The translations under genes and the position numbers were made by a program. Shown here piece after piece: positions 4,941 through 13,018 of a stretch of DNA of 33,513 nucleotides. Position 1 is the first letter of the stretch; each line of letters opens with the position of its first letter. This stretch comes from a candidate division WS1 bacterium (lineage in GTDB: Bacteria > Armatimonadota > Zipacnadia > Zipacnadales > Zipacnadaceae), in assembly GCA_012523355.1 (NCBI GenBank), contig JAAYIR010000142.1, positions 1 to 33,513 of the forward strand. Reading direction: 5' to 3'. The notes beneath the pieces are model-generated. The model was not told where the DNA came from and ran no database searches. It saw only the letters and a program-made list of their open reading frames with translations.

Positions 4941-5015
4941 GGGCCCGTAGCTCAGCGGCAGAGCGGTCGGCTCATAACCGATTGGTCGCTGGTTCGAACC
5001 CAGCCGGGCCCACCA
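4941..5015 (+). tRNA. tRNA-Met (CAT), elongator-type, CCA encoded
   Basis: Acceptor GGGCCCG/CGGGCCC, anticodon stem-loop GTCGG-CTCATAA-CCGAT, T-loop GGTTCGAACCC, terminal ACCA. The G1-C72 pair argues against initiator tRNA. Confidence 0.93.
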
Positions 5016-5141: not shown

Positions 5142-7964
5142 ATGCTCGGTGTAGTGGCAGATTATCTAAAGGCGGGACGTCATCGGCGTGGGCGTCACGT
5201 ATTCTTCCTCGGCAGCGGTGCCAAGCTCCCTCCGCAAGAGAAGACCCTCGCAAGCTTTCTTCAGGACGTCGCCGCGAAAACGGTCAAAGATAGCTTCGAG
5301 CGGCTCCCGGCGGAGCGGAGGCCTGTGGCCCAACTGGAGGAGTACGCGCGCCTCGTCCCCGACCACGGCGAACGTTGCCGGAGCTTGCGCGCCTTGCTGA
5401 GCGCCAGCCGCCCGGCAGAGGGGCATGTGCGCCTGGCCACTCTCATCAAGGACGGGTACTTCCCCTCCGTCTTCACCATGGAGCCCCATGCGCTGCTGGA
5501 ACAGGCCCTGCGCAACAACTTCATGGAGCCGGGCTCGGACTACAACCTGCTCGTACTGGGCGTGGACGAGCCGGAGGCGGTGGTCTCTGCGCTGCATCAC
5601 TCCACCCGGGTTACGGTAGTCAAGTGTGGGGGCGATCTGGAACGCCGGTCCCTTCCCCTGACGGAGGCCGAACTGACCGAGATGTTGCAGCCCTATGCCA
5701 AGGTCATCGGGGAGGCCTTCCGTCTGGTGTCGCTGTTCATCGGGTATACGGATCGGGACCTGCCTTTCCTGCGGCTGGTGCCGCACGAGGGGGGGAAAGT
5801 CTTCTGGATCAACCCGACGATCCCCCTCAGCGATCAGAGCGCCTTCCATGAGCTGCGCACTGACGAGCCGGAGGTCGCGGAGTATCACAAGCTGCAGTTG
5901 GAGGTCACCTCTCTCCTGGAGAGCCGGCAGTCGCAGCGCCATATCGTGGCCCGGGAGGCGGGCAGCTTCAACGAGTTCTTCTCGGCCCTGGGTACGCAGC
6001 TCAAGCACCATTCACGACGGCGGGGGCTGCGGCGCAGGGAGCTCAGCGTGCTTCGGGGCGGCCCGTATCGCTTTCTGGACTACTTCGACGTGGAGGACTC
6101 CGAGTTCTTCTTCGGACGCGAACCGGATGTCGAGAGGCTGCTCAAGCTGACGGCAGAGAACCAGCTCGCGGTGTTGTTCGGCCGTCCCGCCATCGGCAAG
6201 ACCTCCGTGCTGCGGGCCGGGCTCATGGCCACCTTGCGCCGACGAGATGAGGAGTACAGGGAGGGCCAGGGCGAGCGGCCACTCCTGCCGGTGTTCACCG
6301 CCTGCGGGGAGGACACGGATGCCGCGCTGCGCCGCGCGATCCTCGCCCGGGCGGAGACGGAGGGGTTCCCCCTGCCGCCGGAAGCGGAGCAGGCCGGCTG
6401 GGTGGAGATGGCGCTGGCGCTGGCGGAGGTTACCGGGCGAAGGCTGTTGATCATCCTCGACCAGTTCGCCAACATCTTCGTCAAGGTCGGCGCGCCCGTG
6501 CGGAAGCAGTTTCTCGAACAGATCCGGCGGATGGTGGAGGATGAGCGGGTGCACGTCCTGATTTCCATCCGTGAGGACTACCTGGGGGAGCTGCTGGAAC
6601 AGCGTGAGCACTTGCCGGGTATCATGGACCATTTTCACCGGTTGCATCGCCTCACCTGGGAGCAGGCCGAGGCCGCGACCACTAAGCCAGCGGCCAATTT
6701 CAGCCTCACCATCGAGCGGGACCTCGTCCAGCGTCTGCTGGAGGACCTCTCCCGGGAGGGGGTCGAGCCCGCGCAGTTACAGATTGTGCTCTACCGGCTG
6801 TATGAGGCGTTGGAGCCTCCCTCGCGCGTTATCTCGCAGCGGATGTACGACCAGCAAGGCGGGGCGCTCAAGATACTCGCCACGTACATGGACCAGGCGC
6901 TGGCCCAGCTGCCGCTGGCGGAGCGTCCCATGGCGCGGCTGATCCTCAAGCAGATGGTGGCCTCTAGCGAGCTGCGCGGGCGGCGCATTCTGGACCGGAT
7001 CGTTCAGGAGGTGGCTCCAGAGCGCGAAACCGTGGAGCGGGTACTGGCCCACCTGGTGGATCACCGCCTGGTGCGCATGAATGAGGAAGAGCATGCTCGC
7101 AGCTATGAGTTGGTGCATGAGTACCTGGCCGAGGAGATCAAGGACTGGCTGGGTGAGGAAGGCAGTCAGCGGCGAGACGTTCAGGACTTGCTGACGCGGG
7201 AATACACCAACTACGAGAAGTTTGGCCTACTAATTGACGTAAGCATCATGCGTACGCTCACCGAGTACGCACGGGAGCTGAGCATCTCCGCAGGTGAATT
7301 GGAGCTCATTCTGAAGAGTGCCGCGGTGACCGGAGTGGGGGTGGAGTACTGGTTCGGACGGCTCAACGAGCTGGGGGGGGGAAGAAATCGGACCTTGCTC
7401 TCTCTCCTGCAGGACGAACGGGCGGAGATCCGCGCGGCGGCGGCACAGCACTTGCCAGCGGACCTGCCGGGCAGCTTCTTGCCCGCACTCGCCGAGGGGC
7501 TGGAAGACGAGGTAGAGGAAGTGCGCGCAAACGTTGCCCGCGCCTTGCGCGGCCTCGAACGGGAGATCGTGGCTTTGCTGAAGTCAGATCGGCCTGAGCA
7601 CAAGCGGCTGGCAGCGACGGCCATAGGGCGTCTAGGATTGCGGCGGCACGCGGCGAAGATCACTGAGGCCCTGACCGATGAAGACCCCGAATTCGCGGCA
7701 GTGGCGGCGGAAACACTCCACTCGCTGGGGCCGGGCAGGCTGACGCGCCATCTGCTGCGGCGGGTGATTGGCAATGAGGTCCCCTGGGCCTATGCGGAGG
7801 TGCTAGGACGGCTGTCGCACACCGAGCGCGGCCTGGCTCAGCTCAAGCGCGCCGTGGAGCAGCACCCGAAGCACCTGAAGCTAGCCTACGCCTTGAGCCA
7901 GGCGGAGATACAGGCGCGACATTACGACGAAGCAACGCGGGTGCTACGGGAAGCCTATGACTAG
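5142..7964 (+). CDS. SIR2-like + nSTAND1 NTPase + HEAT/TPR repeat protein (upstream half of a TAG-interrupted ORF)
   Basis: N-terminal SIR2-like fold signatures (VFFLGSGAKLPP, VFTMEPHALLEQAL, VVKCGGDLE, LFIGYTDRDL). nSTAND1 signature PYRFLDYFDVEDSEFFFGREPDVERLLKL...VLFGRPAIGKTSVLRAGL and LLIILDQFANIF. HEAT-like LLQDERAEIRAAAAQHL... and TPR-like PKHLKLAYALSQAEIQARHYDEATRVLREAYD. RBS AAGGAAG before the ATG. Confidence 0.85.
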   Translation: MLGVVADYLKAGRHRRGRHVFFLGSGAKLPPQEKTLASFLQDVAAKTVKDSFERLPAERRPVAQLEEYARLVPDHGERCRSLRALLSASRPAEGHVRLATLIKDGYFPSVFTMEPHALLEQALRNNFMEPGSDYNLLVLGVDEPEAVVSALHHSTRVTVVKCGGDLERRSLPLTEAELTEMLQPYAKVIGEAFRLVSLFIGYTDRDLPFLRLVPHEGGKVFWINPTIPLSDQSAFHELRTDEPEVAEYHKLQLEVTSLLESRQSQRHIVAREAGSFNEFFSALGTQLKHHSRRRGLRRRELSVLRGGPYRFLDYFDVEDSEFFFGREPDVERLLKLTAENQLAVLFGRPAIGKTSVLRAGLMATLRRRDEEYREGQGERPLLPVFTACGEDTDAALRRAILARAETEGFPLPPEAEQAGWVEMALALAEVTGRRLLIILDQFANIFVKVGAPVRKQFLEQIRRMVEDERVHVLISIREDYLGELLEQREHLPGIMDHFHRLHRLTWEQAEAATTKPAANFSLTIERDLVQRLLEDLSREGVEPAQLQIVLYRLYEALEPPSRVISQRMYDQQGGALKILATYMDQALAQLPLAERPMARLILKQMVASSELRGRRILDRIVQEVAPERETVERVLAHLVDHRLVRMNEEEHARSYELVHEYLAEEIKDWLGEEGSQRRDVQDLLTREYTNYEKFGLLIDVSIMRTLTEYARELSISAGELELILKSAAVTGVGVEYWFGRLNELGGGRNRTLLSLLQDERAEIRAAAAQHLPADLPGSFLPALAEGLEDEVEEVRANVARALRGLEREIVALLKSDRPEHKRLAATAIGRLGLRRHAAKITEALTDEDPEFAAVAAETLHSLGPGRLTRHLLRRVIGNEVPWAYAEVLGRLSHTERGLAQLKRAVEQHPKHLKLAYALSQAEIQARHYDEATRVLREAYD

Positions 7965-7979
7965 GCTGCCGAGCCGGCG

Positions 7980-9080
7980 GTGCGGGAACTCCTCGAGTCC
8001 CGTCTGGCCGCGGTTGAGGCGGCGGGGCTGAGGGCAGTAGCCGGAGCTAGCCAGTGGCCCTCCTTCGGCGGTAACGCGCGCCACGAGAGTTATTCACCCA
8101 CCGCGCTGGGCCCGGGCCTGCGGCAGGTTTGGGCCGTGCGTACCAACGGACCGGTAGTGGCCTCGCCGGTGGTGGGAAAGGCGACAGTTTATGTGGGCAG
8201 CCGCGACGGAATCTTCTATGCGGTGGACAGCGCGCGGGGCGAGGTCCGCTGGACCTTTCATACCGGAGCACGGATAGAAGGCACCGCCGCGCTGGCCGAT
8301 GATAGCGTGCTCTTTGGCTCCACCGACAAACATCTTTACAGCCTGGAGGCGCTACGCGGACGTGAGCAGTGGCGACTGCTGCTGCCGGGGCCGGTACGTT
8401 CGCCCTGTACCATCGCGGGTGATCTGGTGGTGGTAGGGGATGTGGCCGGAAATCTGACCGCGGTGGAAGTCCACACAGGGAAGATGCGGTGGCGTTTCGC
8501 CACGGAAGGCGAGATTCTCTCGGCCCCGGCATACGCTAAGGGCCGCCTGTATTTCGGTTCCTGGGACGCGCATTTGTATGCTCTCGATGCCGAGAGCGGC
8601 GAGCAGATCTGGCGCACCTCCACCGGAGGACCGATCGCGGCCTCCCCAACCATTGGCGAGCATCTCATGTGGTGCGGCTCCGAGGATGGGGACCTTTACG
8701 CGCTGGATCTGGAGGATGGCGAGATGGCCTGGATCGCCGACTTGGGCGGGCGCATTCGGGGCTTCCCCGCCATCGTTGGCGACATGCTTCTCCTGGGCTC
8801 CGGCACGGGGAAGGTGCACGCACTGAAGCAACTGACCGGGGAGCGCTGCTGGCAGACCCGGACCGGGGACGAGGTGCTGGCCTCCGCCGCGGTGGCCGGG
8901 CCGGTTGCCTATCTGGGCTCCAAGGACGGCTCTCTGTATGCCTTTGACTGCCAGACCGGTGAGGTGCTGTGGAAGCACTCGACGGTCTACGGTATCTATT
9001 CCTCGCCCGCTTTGGCCGAGGAGGCCTTGTTCATTGGAGTGTCTTACTACTATGTGGCGGCTTTTCGGCCGTTGGACTAG
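7980..9080 (+). CDS. PQQ-type beta-propeller repeat protein, likely the C-terminal part of the upstream STAND protein
   Basis: Repeated blades of the form xLYALDxxxGExxWxxxTGGPIxASPxIxGxxxxxGSxDGxLYALD. In frame with 5142-7964, separated by a single TAG. Listed start is a GTG with no clear RBS or signal peptide. Confidence 0.85.
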   Translation: MRELLESRLAAVEAAGLRAVAGASQWPSFGGNARHESYSPTALGPGLRQVWAVRTNGPVVASPVVGKATVYVGSRDGIFYAVDSARGEVRWTFHTGARIEGTAALADDSVLFGSTDKHLYSLEALRGREQWRLLLPGPVRSPCTIAGDLVVVGDVAGNLTAVEVHTGKMRWRFATEGEILSAPAYAKGRLYFGSWDAHLYALDAESGEQIWRTSTGGPIAASPTIGEHLMWCGSEDGDLYALDLEDGEMAWIADLGGRIRGFPAIVGDMLLLGSGTGKVHALKQLTGERCWQTRTGDEVLASAAVAGPVAYLGSKDGSLYAFDCQTGEVLWKHSTVYGIYSSPALAEEALFIGVSYYYVAAFRPLD

Positions 9081-9888
9081 CTCCCGGACAGCTTTGGTCC
9101 TGCTCCCGCTGGCGCTCCTGACGAGCGCCGGTTGCGGTCTCGCGCCCCAGCTTGACCGGCTGCGCAAGGACTACGTCGCTCAGGCGCAGATCGGTCAGGC
9201 CAAGGCACAGGTCGCGGCCGGGGGCGACTTTCAGCGGGCCCACAAGCTAGCGGAGCGGGCGCTGCAACTGACGCCTGACAGCTTGCCCGTGATCAGGACC
9301 GCGGCGGCGGTGTTCCTGCGAACGGGAGCCTGGGAGCAGGGTCTGCAGACACTGGAGGAGTACGAGTCCCGGGCGGGGGCGGTGAGCCTCTACGAGAAGG
9401 GGATGGCATGCCTGTATACCGGACGGGAGGCGGAGGGGACGCGTTTATTGGAGAGCTATCTTGCCGATCAACGATCGCTGCGTGCGGTAGGCCAGATTGA
9501 CGATGAGAGCCTGGCCTGGACTCTAAACAACGTGGGTTACGTTTATGCCGACGCCGGCGTGCACCTGACGCGGGCTCTTGAGCTTACCCGGGCGGCCCTC
9601 CGGCTGCGTTGGGGTAGCCCGGCCATCGCCGACAGCGTGGCCTGGGCGTACTACCGGCTGGCACGCTACGACGAGGCCGCCTTCCATGTGGAGCAGGCGG
9701 TGCGGCTGATGCGCCCCCCGGACGCAGTCCTTCTCTACCATGCAGGGGCCGTGCATGCCAGGCAGGGCCGACTCATTCTGGCGGAGAATGAACTGAGACG
9801 GGCGCTGAAATTGCAGCGGCACTTCCCGGAGGCCCGCTACGAATTGGAGCGGCTGCACTGGCAGTTGCCGCCGCCTCAGAGAGTCTAG
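9052..9888 (+). CDS. TPR-repeat lipoprotein
   Basis: ATG at 9052 gives MWRLFGRWTSSRTALVLLPLALLTSAGC with lipobox LTSAGC, followed by TPR-like helices. Overlaps the 3' end of the propeller ORF by 29 nt. Confidence 0.75.
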   Translation: MWRLFGRWTSSRTALVLLPLALLTSAGCGLAPQLDRLRKDYVAQAQIGQAKAQVAAGGDFQRAHKLAERALQLTPDSLPVIRTAAAVFLRTGAWEQGLQTLEEYESRAGAVSLYEKGMACLYTGREAEGTRLLESYLADQRSLRAVGQIDDESLAWTLNNVGYVYADAGVHLTRALELTRAALRLRWGSPAIADSVAWAYYRLARYDEAAFHVEQAVRLMRPPDAVLLYHAGAVHARQGRLILAENELRRALKLQRHFPEARYELERLHWQLPPPQRV

Positions 9889-9932
9889 CCCGCAATGTGG
9901 TGACCGATAACTCGCTTGGTGGAGGTACAGGT

Positions 9933-11117
9933 ATGAAAATATCTCAACGCGCGCGGGAGCTTACTCCCTCGCCGACGCTGGCCATGGATAGCCGGGCCAA
10001 GGCACTGGCAGCCGAAGGAGTGGACATTATCTCCTTCGCCGTAGGTGAGCCAGACTTCCCGACACCACCGAACGTGGTGGAGGCGGCCTGCACAGCGATT
10101 CATGCCGGACAGACCAAGTATACGCCTGCCTCCGGCATTCCTCAGCTCAAGCAGGCCATTGTGGCAGCGACCGAGCGGGATCTGGGGTTGCAGTACGACC
10201 CCGCGCAGGTCTGCGTCTGCAACGGTGGCAAGCACGCGCTAATGAACATCTGGCAGAGCCTCGTGGATCCGGGCGATGAGGTCATCGTCTTTGCGCCCTA
10301 CTGGGTAAGCTATCCACCCCAGATTGAACTCTGCGGAGGCCGGGTAGTAGTCATCGCCACCGGTGCCGAGAGTGACTTCCAGCCGGATCTGGAGGGGGTG
10401 CGTGCCGCAGTCACCGACCGGACCATCGCCATCCTGATCAATAGCCCCTCCAATCCGGCAGGGGCCATCTTCACTCGCGCCACGTTGCGGGGGCTGGTGG
10501 ACCTGGCGGAGGAGCGGAACTTGCTGATCATCTCTGACGAGATCTACAAGCACATCCTCTTTGACGGGCGAGAACACCTGAGCCCGGCGCAACTGGGTGC
10601 GGACGCACAGGCGCGCACCATCCTGGCCGATGGCGTGGCCAAGACCTACGCCATGACCGGCTGGCGGATCGGGTGGCTCATCGCGCCGCCGGAGATCGCC
10701 AAGCGGGCCGGAGACATCCAGAGTCAAGAGACCTCCAATCCCTGCACGCCCGCCCAGTACGCCGCGTTGGAGGCGCTCAGCGGACCGCAGGAGTCGGTAG
10801 AGGAGATGCGGGCGGAGTTTGAGCGGCGGCGTGACTATCTCGTCCCTGCGCTGAACGAAATCCCGGGTGTGACGTGTAATACTCCTGGTGGGGCTTTCTA
10901 TGTGTATCCGGATATCACCGCACACCTGGGCCGCAAGCTAGATGGCGAAGTGATCGGCGGCTCCCTCGAGCTCTGTGAGTACCTGCTCGATACGGCGCAC
11001 ATCAGCACTGTCCCGGGCTCTGCCTTCGGCACCGAGGGCTATCTGCGCATCAGCTTCGCTACCTCTATGGAGAAGCTGCAGGAGGGTGTGAGGAGGCTTA
11101 CCGAGGCCCTGAAGTAA
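9933..11117 (+). CDS. aspC: Pyridoxal phosphate-dependent aminotransferase, aspartate aminotransferase-like
   Basis: MKISQRARELTPSPTLAMDSRAKALAAEGVDIISFAVGEPDFPTP; INSPSNPAGAIF; SDEIYKHILFDG; VAKTYAMTGWRIGW. RBS GGAGG at 9921. Confidence 0.88.
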   Translation: MKISQRARELTPSPTLAMDSRAKALAAEGVDIISFAVGEPDFPTPPNVVEAACTAIHAGQTKYTPASGIPQLKQAIVAATERDLGLQYDPAQVCVCNGGKHALMNIWQSLVDPGDEVIVFAPYWVSYPPQIELCGGRVVVIATGAESDFQPDLEGVRAAVTDRTIAILINSPSNPAGAIFTRATLRGLVDLAEERNLLIISDEIYKHILFDGREHLSPAQLGADAQARTILADGVAKTYAMTGWRIGWLIAPPEIAKRAGDIQSQETSNPCTPAQYAALEALSGPQESVEEMRAEFERRRDYLVPALNEIPGVTCNTPGGAFYVYPDITAHLGRKLDGEVIGGSLELCEYLLDTAHISTVPGSAFGTEGYLRISFATSMEKLQEGVRRLTEALK

Positions 11118-11938: not shown

Positions 11939-13018
11939 ATGCATCGAGTTACCTTCATCCCCGGCGATGGGACCGGGCCGGAAGTGGCCTGGGCCATGCG
12001 CCGCTGCGTCGAGGCCACCGGAGTTGAGATTGAATGGGAGGAGCAGCATGCCGGTCTCGACGTCATGGAGGAGAAAGGCACGCCCTTGCCTCCGGAAGTG
12101 CTGGAGTCCATTCGCCGCAACCGTGTCGCCATCAAGGGGCCGATCACCACACCGGTGGGCAGCGGCTTCCGCAGTGTCAATGTCGCCCTGCGCAAGGAGC
12201 TGGATCTGTACGCCTGCCTGCGTCCCTGCAAGTATTATCCGGGGGTCCGTAGCCACTATGACAATGTGGACCTGGTTATCGTGCGTGAGAATACCGAGGA
12301 CCTCTATGCGGGTATTGAGTTCGAGCGCGGCACCCCGGAATGTGCGGAGGTTACGGAGATCATCGAGAGGCTGGGCGGCAAGCGGGTCTGGCCGGGATCC
12401 TCGCTGAGCCTCAAGCCGATTTCCGAGTTCGCCACCGAGCGGATCGTGCGCTTTGCCTTTGAGTACGCGGTGGCGCATGGGCGGCGCAAAGTGACGGCGG
12501 TCCATAAGGCCAACATCATGAAGTTCACCGACGGGCTGTTCCTGGAGGTGGCACGAGCGGTCGCCAAGAACTATGCTAATATCGAGTTTGAGGACCGCAT
12601 CGTGGACAACATGTGCATGCAGCTAGTGCAGAAGCCGGAGCTATATGATGTGCTGGTGCTGCCCAATCTATATGGCGATATCCTGAGCGACCTGGCCTGT
12701 GGTCTGGTCGGGGGCCTGGGGGTGGCGCCGGGAGCCAATCTTGGCGAGGGCCTGGCAGTTTTCGAGCCTACCCACGGCTCGGCCCCCAAGTACGCCGGGC
12801 AGAACAAGGTCAACCCCATCGCCACCATCCTGTCGGGCATGCTCATGCTGGACCATTTGGGTGAAGACAAGGCGGCACGCAAGCTCGAGAACGCGGTGGC
12901 GGCGGTGATCCGCGAGGGTCGGGACGTCACTTACGACATGAAGCCTCAGCGGGAGGATCCCACTGCGGTGGGCACGAGCGAGGTCGCGGACGCGATTGTC
13001 CGGGCTCTGCAGGCCTGA
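11939..13018 (+). CDS. NAD-type isocitrate dehydrogenase (isocitrate/isopropylmalate dehydrogenase family)
   Basis: [108 protein letters not shown]. Confidence 0.9.

Follow-up and report, generated by a model that had tools for sequence, protein, structure and literature searches.

STAND NTPases headed by a SIR2 domain are known as patchily distributed immune proteins. As PMC12931631 describes them, the SIR2-STAND anti-phage proteins of the Avs5 type combine a SIR2-fold head with a STAND NTPase and have a repeat sensor at the C terminus, and the protein that we describe here is built on the same plan. Its NTPase domain is of the family (PF20703) that is common to the nSTAND1 NTPases of conflict systems (PMC8195603). 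Compared by architecture alone, it also resembles the SAMD9 family (PMC5445408), in which a variant Sir2-like domain, a STAND-like P-loop NTPase and TPRs are carried on one chain. In the draft genome analyzed here, the gene for this protein is interrupted by an in-frame TAG codon. We consider it probable that one core protein of 1,312 residues is encoded here and that the TAG is a single-base nonsense change peculiar to this draft genome, arising either from an error in the consensus or as a nonsense allele of the strain, rather than a site of programmed readthrough or an evolved split.

The locus lies in a stretch of 33,513 nt (the window) on one contig (G000:C338) of a MAG that comprises 3.24 Mb in 345 contigs and is 90% complete. 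On the forward strand, a first ORF of 940 codons runs from an ATG at 5142 to a TAG at 7962 to 7964, which is present in the assembled consensus. The same frame continues beyond this TAG through the codons for AAEPA to a GTG (7980 to 7982), the nominal start of a propeller ORF, and reaches a second TAG at 9078 to 9080, giving 371 further in-frame codons. The second TAG is the genuine terminal stop, as the ORFs of relatives end at the same place, and the read-through product would be 1,312 residues long with the interrupting TAG at residue 941. The initial annotation of this stretch, which read the two ORFs as one protein, gave the coordinates, frame and translation of the split ORF correctly.

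Upstream of the stop, Pfam searches matched nSTAND1, HEAT and, weakly, TPR; downstream of it, they identified a PQQ-type beta-propeller. Profiles and the predicted structure assign residues 1 to 300 (5142 to 6041) to a SIR2-fold N-terminal domain. This domain is followed by the nSTAND1 NTPase domain (residues 308 to 692; 6063 to 7217; PF20703, E=2e-52), which scored 179.5 bits against a curated cut-off of 27.1 and has a Walker A motif (GRPAIGKTS), and then by HEAT repeats (residues 779 to 872; 7476 to 7757; PF02985 and PF13646). Weak TPR matches and the predicted structure place TPR helices directly 5' of the stop (residues 897 to 940; 7830 to 7961). On the 3' side of the stop lie a TPR capping helix, predicted with a pLDDT of about 90 (residues 945 to 967; 7974 to 8042), and the PQQ-type propeller (from residue 973; 8058 to 9077), which was identified by PF13570 (E=1e-57), PF13360 and the predicted structure. 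In the model of the read-through C-terminal part, which had a mean pLDDT of 89, the TAG coincides with the final residue of a TPR helix, and the capping helix begins four residues past it, on the downstream side.

The gene was found in all 41 of the order's genomes, with one strong match per genome save where contigs split the gene. A search of named genomes assigned this group to Ca. Zipacnadia of the Armatimonadota and showed that Ca. Zipacnadum vermilionense, a taxon described in PMC10290634, is a congener. Nearly all of the copies that lie whole on a contig consist of a single open frame of about 1,310 to 1,350 codons, and a few are longer (for example, 1,404 codons in G040 and 1,599 codons in G025). 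The whole copies that are broken are that of the window, that of G010, which has a different internal TAG, and that of G036, which has a frame break near residue 500. At the site of the window's TAG, all 19 aligned relatives have a sense codon and the residue encoded there varies; the two congeners have GGT and GTC, which does not fit an ancestral CAG (Gln), the codon that the initial annotation noted to be one base from TAG. In five class-level genomes from outside the order, the protein is likewise fused. Chance alignment of the two frames was ruled out by the unbroken frame of the relatives, which has the same domain order across the junction, and neither a two-protein arrangement nor a conserved RBS before the propeller was seen in the homologues examined. 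The single-protein reading of the initial annotation is thus strongly supported, and the gene appears to be core and vertically inherited in the order.

The same comparison bears on the idea that the two halves function as separate chains, the second being made by termination-reinitiation at the GTG at 7980 and then reassociating with the first. The stop and the GTG are only 15 nt apart, and the predicted structure puts the break between two helices, both of which would suit such a fission. However, this GTG is the sole canonical start before the propeller, and we found no Shine-Dalgarno sequence upstream of it, bearing out the earlier remark that it has no evident RBS. Moreover, the GTG lies within the capping helix, such that initiation there would remove the first residues of that helix. 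No relative examined is split at this position or retains a start codon at the propeller junction. We therefore regard a functional fission as having almost no likelihood.

Interruptions were also found in other genes of the same genome, dnaE and bamA among them. The dnaE gene, which served as a long core-gene control, has one internal TAG in the window's own genome (G000:C184:31913-34942; L173:11933, minus strand), at residue 1003 of about 1195, where congeners have Ser. The rpoB control showed no internal stop in any genome and one frame break, in G032. We carried out a census in which 1.11 Mb (34% of the genome) was scanned by coding potential and the candidates were inspected by eye, most of them being checked against relatives or Pfam. 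It yielded a total of nine interruptions, namely, that of the SIR2-nSTAND1 gene and eight others (six TAG and two TAA, with no TGA). Besides the SIR2-nSTAND1 gene and dnaE, TAG codons interrupt genes for a DUF4838 protein (C11; L032:1520), BamA (C34; L221:7823) and TamB (C34; L221:2480), a glutamate-synthase-like gene (C48; L234:1902) and a DUF362 gene (C40; L226:4421). TAA codons interrupt the genes for an ECF sigma factor (L208:7215) and a BNR protein (L212:5188), the latter being the least certain case, with neither a homologue nor a domain spanning the stop.

These interruptions raise the possibility that UAG is translated at a useful frequency, by near-cognate decoding or by an undetected suppressor, such that the full-length protein is made. 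Seven of the nine are TAG, several fall in core or essential genes, and all of the genes are otherwise intact; furthermore, the internal stops that our control searches turned up in the order's genomes are mostly TAG. Readthrough had in fact been suggested by the dnaE TAG, but in the 1.11-Mb sample, two TAAs appeared and the spectrum was compatible with random substitution. The observed TAG:TAA:TGA numbers are 7:2:0, whereas random one-base substitution from the genome's codon usage predicts proportions of 0.59:0.20:0.21, and under that model the probability of at least seven TAGs in nine is 0.22. What relatives encode in place of these TAGs varies from gene to gene (G/V, S, S/T, Y, F/Y and S/G), which argues against readthrough and also against recoding to one amino acid, for which dnaE and DUF4838 had suggested Ser and BamA had suggested Tyr.

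The decoding machinery points the same way. No tRNA with a CUA anticodon was present among the 44 tRNAs detected, a nearly complete set for this MAG, a search for PylS in the MAG gave sub-cut-off matches only, and RF1 is present in the genome, so that none of an amber suppressor tRNA, pyrrolysine and RF1 loss was supported. TAG is the commonest stop codon, terminating 116 of the 263 confident genes, and a check for a stimulatory RNA structure 3' of the interrupting stop revealed nothing beyond chance. Same-frame ORF neighbours are split by 31 TAG, 21 TGA and 12 TAA codons, near the usage of terminal stops, which does not support TAG enrichment among such pairs. Those of the scanned TAG-joined pairs with recognisable domains on both sides proved to be separate genes. 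The TAG cases could all be tolerated amber codons, as an alternative reading. Nonetheless, we think it very unlikely that UAG is read through at this locus, and we find it highly improbable that the lineage as a whole tolerates internal UAG in its core genes (SIR2-nSTAND1, dnaE, bamA and glutamate-synthase-like) through efficient near-cognate readthrough that needs no dedicated tRNA, and at the same time ends more genes with TAG than with any other stop.

A real nonsense mutation that had become fixed would make this copy a very young pseudogene or would mean that the population produces a truncated SIR2-nSTAND1-HEAT protein lacking the propeller. That the TAG stands in the assembled consensus is consistent with such an event, as is the independent TAG of the G010 homologue (L005, G010:C108), at residue 253, which is mostly Glu or Lys in relatives. 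Further, at 11 columns upstream of the stop, the window copy alone departs from a residue that is otherwise invariant. Its congeners have fewer such changes, and those of the window copy could reflect some relaxation. They include Glu444 of the Walker B region (6471 to 6473), which is Asn in this copy only and Glu in all of the other aligned homologues. However, the presence of the gene in every genome of the order suggests that it is needed, and the region 3' of the stop is as conserved as it is in congeners without the stop, with no decay seen, implying that the stop is very recent, is tolerated or is not real. In addition, dnaE and bamA are essential where studied, so that the stops in these two genes of the same genome cannot plausibly be true nulls, which favors error over a set of pseudogenes. 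We consider fixation of a real nonsense mutation unlikely.

Internal stops are documented to arise through assembly (PMC11017572), and, like those found here, the spurious stops described there occur singly in draft-genome genes that are intact in all other respects. The rate that we observed, approximately one interruption per 36,000 codons (on a rough figure of 326,000 coding codons), plausibly fits consensus error or strain mixture in a fragmented MAG. Judging from the sequence, then, the TAG at 7962 to 7964 most probably represents either an error of assembly or a nonsense base carried by the strain. Among the explanations initially offered for it, assembly error or recent nonsense mutation fits best, whereas programmed amber readthrough or suppression finds no support in the tRNAs, PylS, RF1 or RNA structure, and none of the relatives shows a genuine fission. 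Reads should be checked before any internal stop in this MAG is given a biological meaning.

The TAG itself is probably biologically unimportant, and the intact protein is of more interest than the stop; reading through exposes a STAND protein that is core to the whole order. The PADLOC SIR2 models match its N terminus (E=4e-10), and the AlphaFold model of this region (pLDDT 82) has a SIR2 fold, for which the best PDB matches are SPARSA, DSR2, ThsA and KomC. We made a profile alignment of the head with the SIR2_2 proteins of the same order, which occur in 15 of the 41 genomes. In this alignment, TTNYD pairs with TMEPH (TMEPx) and KLHG (KxHG) pairs with KCGG. The catalytic Asn and His motifs of SIR2 are absent from all 20 of the aligned order-level sequences and, by inspection, they are also missing from the class-level homologues. 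The head is thus most likely a scaffold or ligand-binding module and not an NAD-consuming toxin.

In another family of the phylum, represented by L153, L154 and L155 (G059, G072 and G085), the nSTAND1 part has a different N terminus, which reads like an HD-type domain. There, the gene that precedes the nSTAND1 gene has an N terminus that reads like a cold-shock domain.

The gene also has a conserved setting. A tRNA-Met gene (CAU; 4941 to 5015, forward strand), identified with ARAGORN, lies 5' of it in the window, and ARAGORN found a tRNA-Met 105 to 206 nt upstream in 20 of the 20 order-level loci with upstream sequence. On its 3' side, and on the same strand, are an ORF for a TPR protein (8905 to 9888), the true start of which is probably past 9080, an aminotransferase class I/II gene (9897 to 11117) and a gene of the isocitrate/isopropylmalate dehydrogenase family (11939 to 13018). 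Most loci with enough flanking sequence have the same succession of the gene, the TPR protein, the aminotransferase and the dehydrogenase family gene. In many families, an rpoD-like gene precedes the SIR2-nSTAND1 gene.

Separately, we observed a principal-type sigma-70 factor in which regions 1.2 and 2 are separated by an insert of approximately 300 residues that carries two bacterial Ig-like domains of the Big_5 family. It is encoded at L148:5251-7380 (minus strand), L157:3333-5435 (minus strand) and G000:C294:6238-8334. Full-length matches to it were found in most of the genomes of the order and in all five of the class-level genomes searched, and beyond the class, regions 2 to 4 alone match. 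In many families, it is encoded directly 5' of the tRNA-Met and the SIR2-nSTAND1 gene.

Neither a patchy distribution nor a defence-island context was found for the SIR2-nSTAND1 gene, which occurs in every genome of the order with conserved tRNA-Met and metabolic neighbours. Its presence, linkage and single copy form the profile of a housekeeping gene. Since the gene is core, vertically inherited and linked to tRNA-Met, and the SIR2 fold that it encodes has neither the catalytic Asn nor the catalytic His, it does not qualify as a typical mobile defence gene. A role in phage defence may nevertheless exist, although the two features usual for such a role, catalytic residues and patchiness, both came out negative. 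With the gene present in every genome of the order, between tRNA-Met and genes of central metabolism, and with SIR2 catalytic residues lacking throughout, the protein looks like an immune-type sensor turned housekeeping protein. Its mode of action would most likely be STAND-type sensing, in which the propeller, TPR and HEAT parts would form the sensor that binds a signal or a partner, the nSTAND1 domain, which binds ATP, would switch and oligomerise, and the N-terminal SIR2-fold platform would act as a catalytically silent scaffold or ligand-binding module.

These properties set the protein apart from each of the systems that it resembles. Unlike the Avs5-type proteins, as characterized in PMC12931631, it lacks the SIR2 catalytic Asn and His, its sensor is of the HEAT-TPR-propeller type, and its gene is core and single copy with conserved neighbours. 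The SAMD9 family proteins start with an AlbA domain and end with an OB fold (PMC5445408), whereas the present protein has no AlbA domain and has HEAT repeats and a propeller. Finally, the nSTAND1 NTPases of conflict systems are accompanied by effector-associated domains (PMC8195603), whereas the gene described here is found order-wide and sits beside housekeeping genes.
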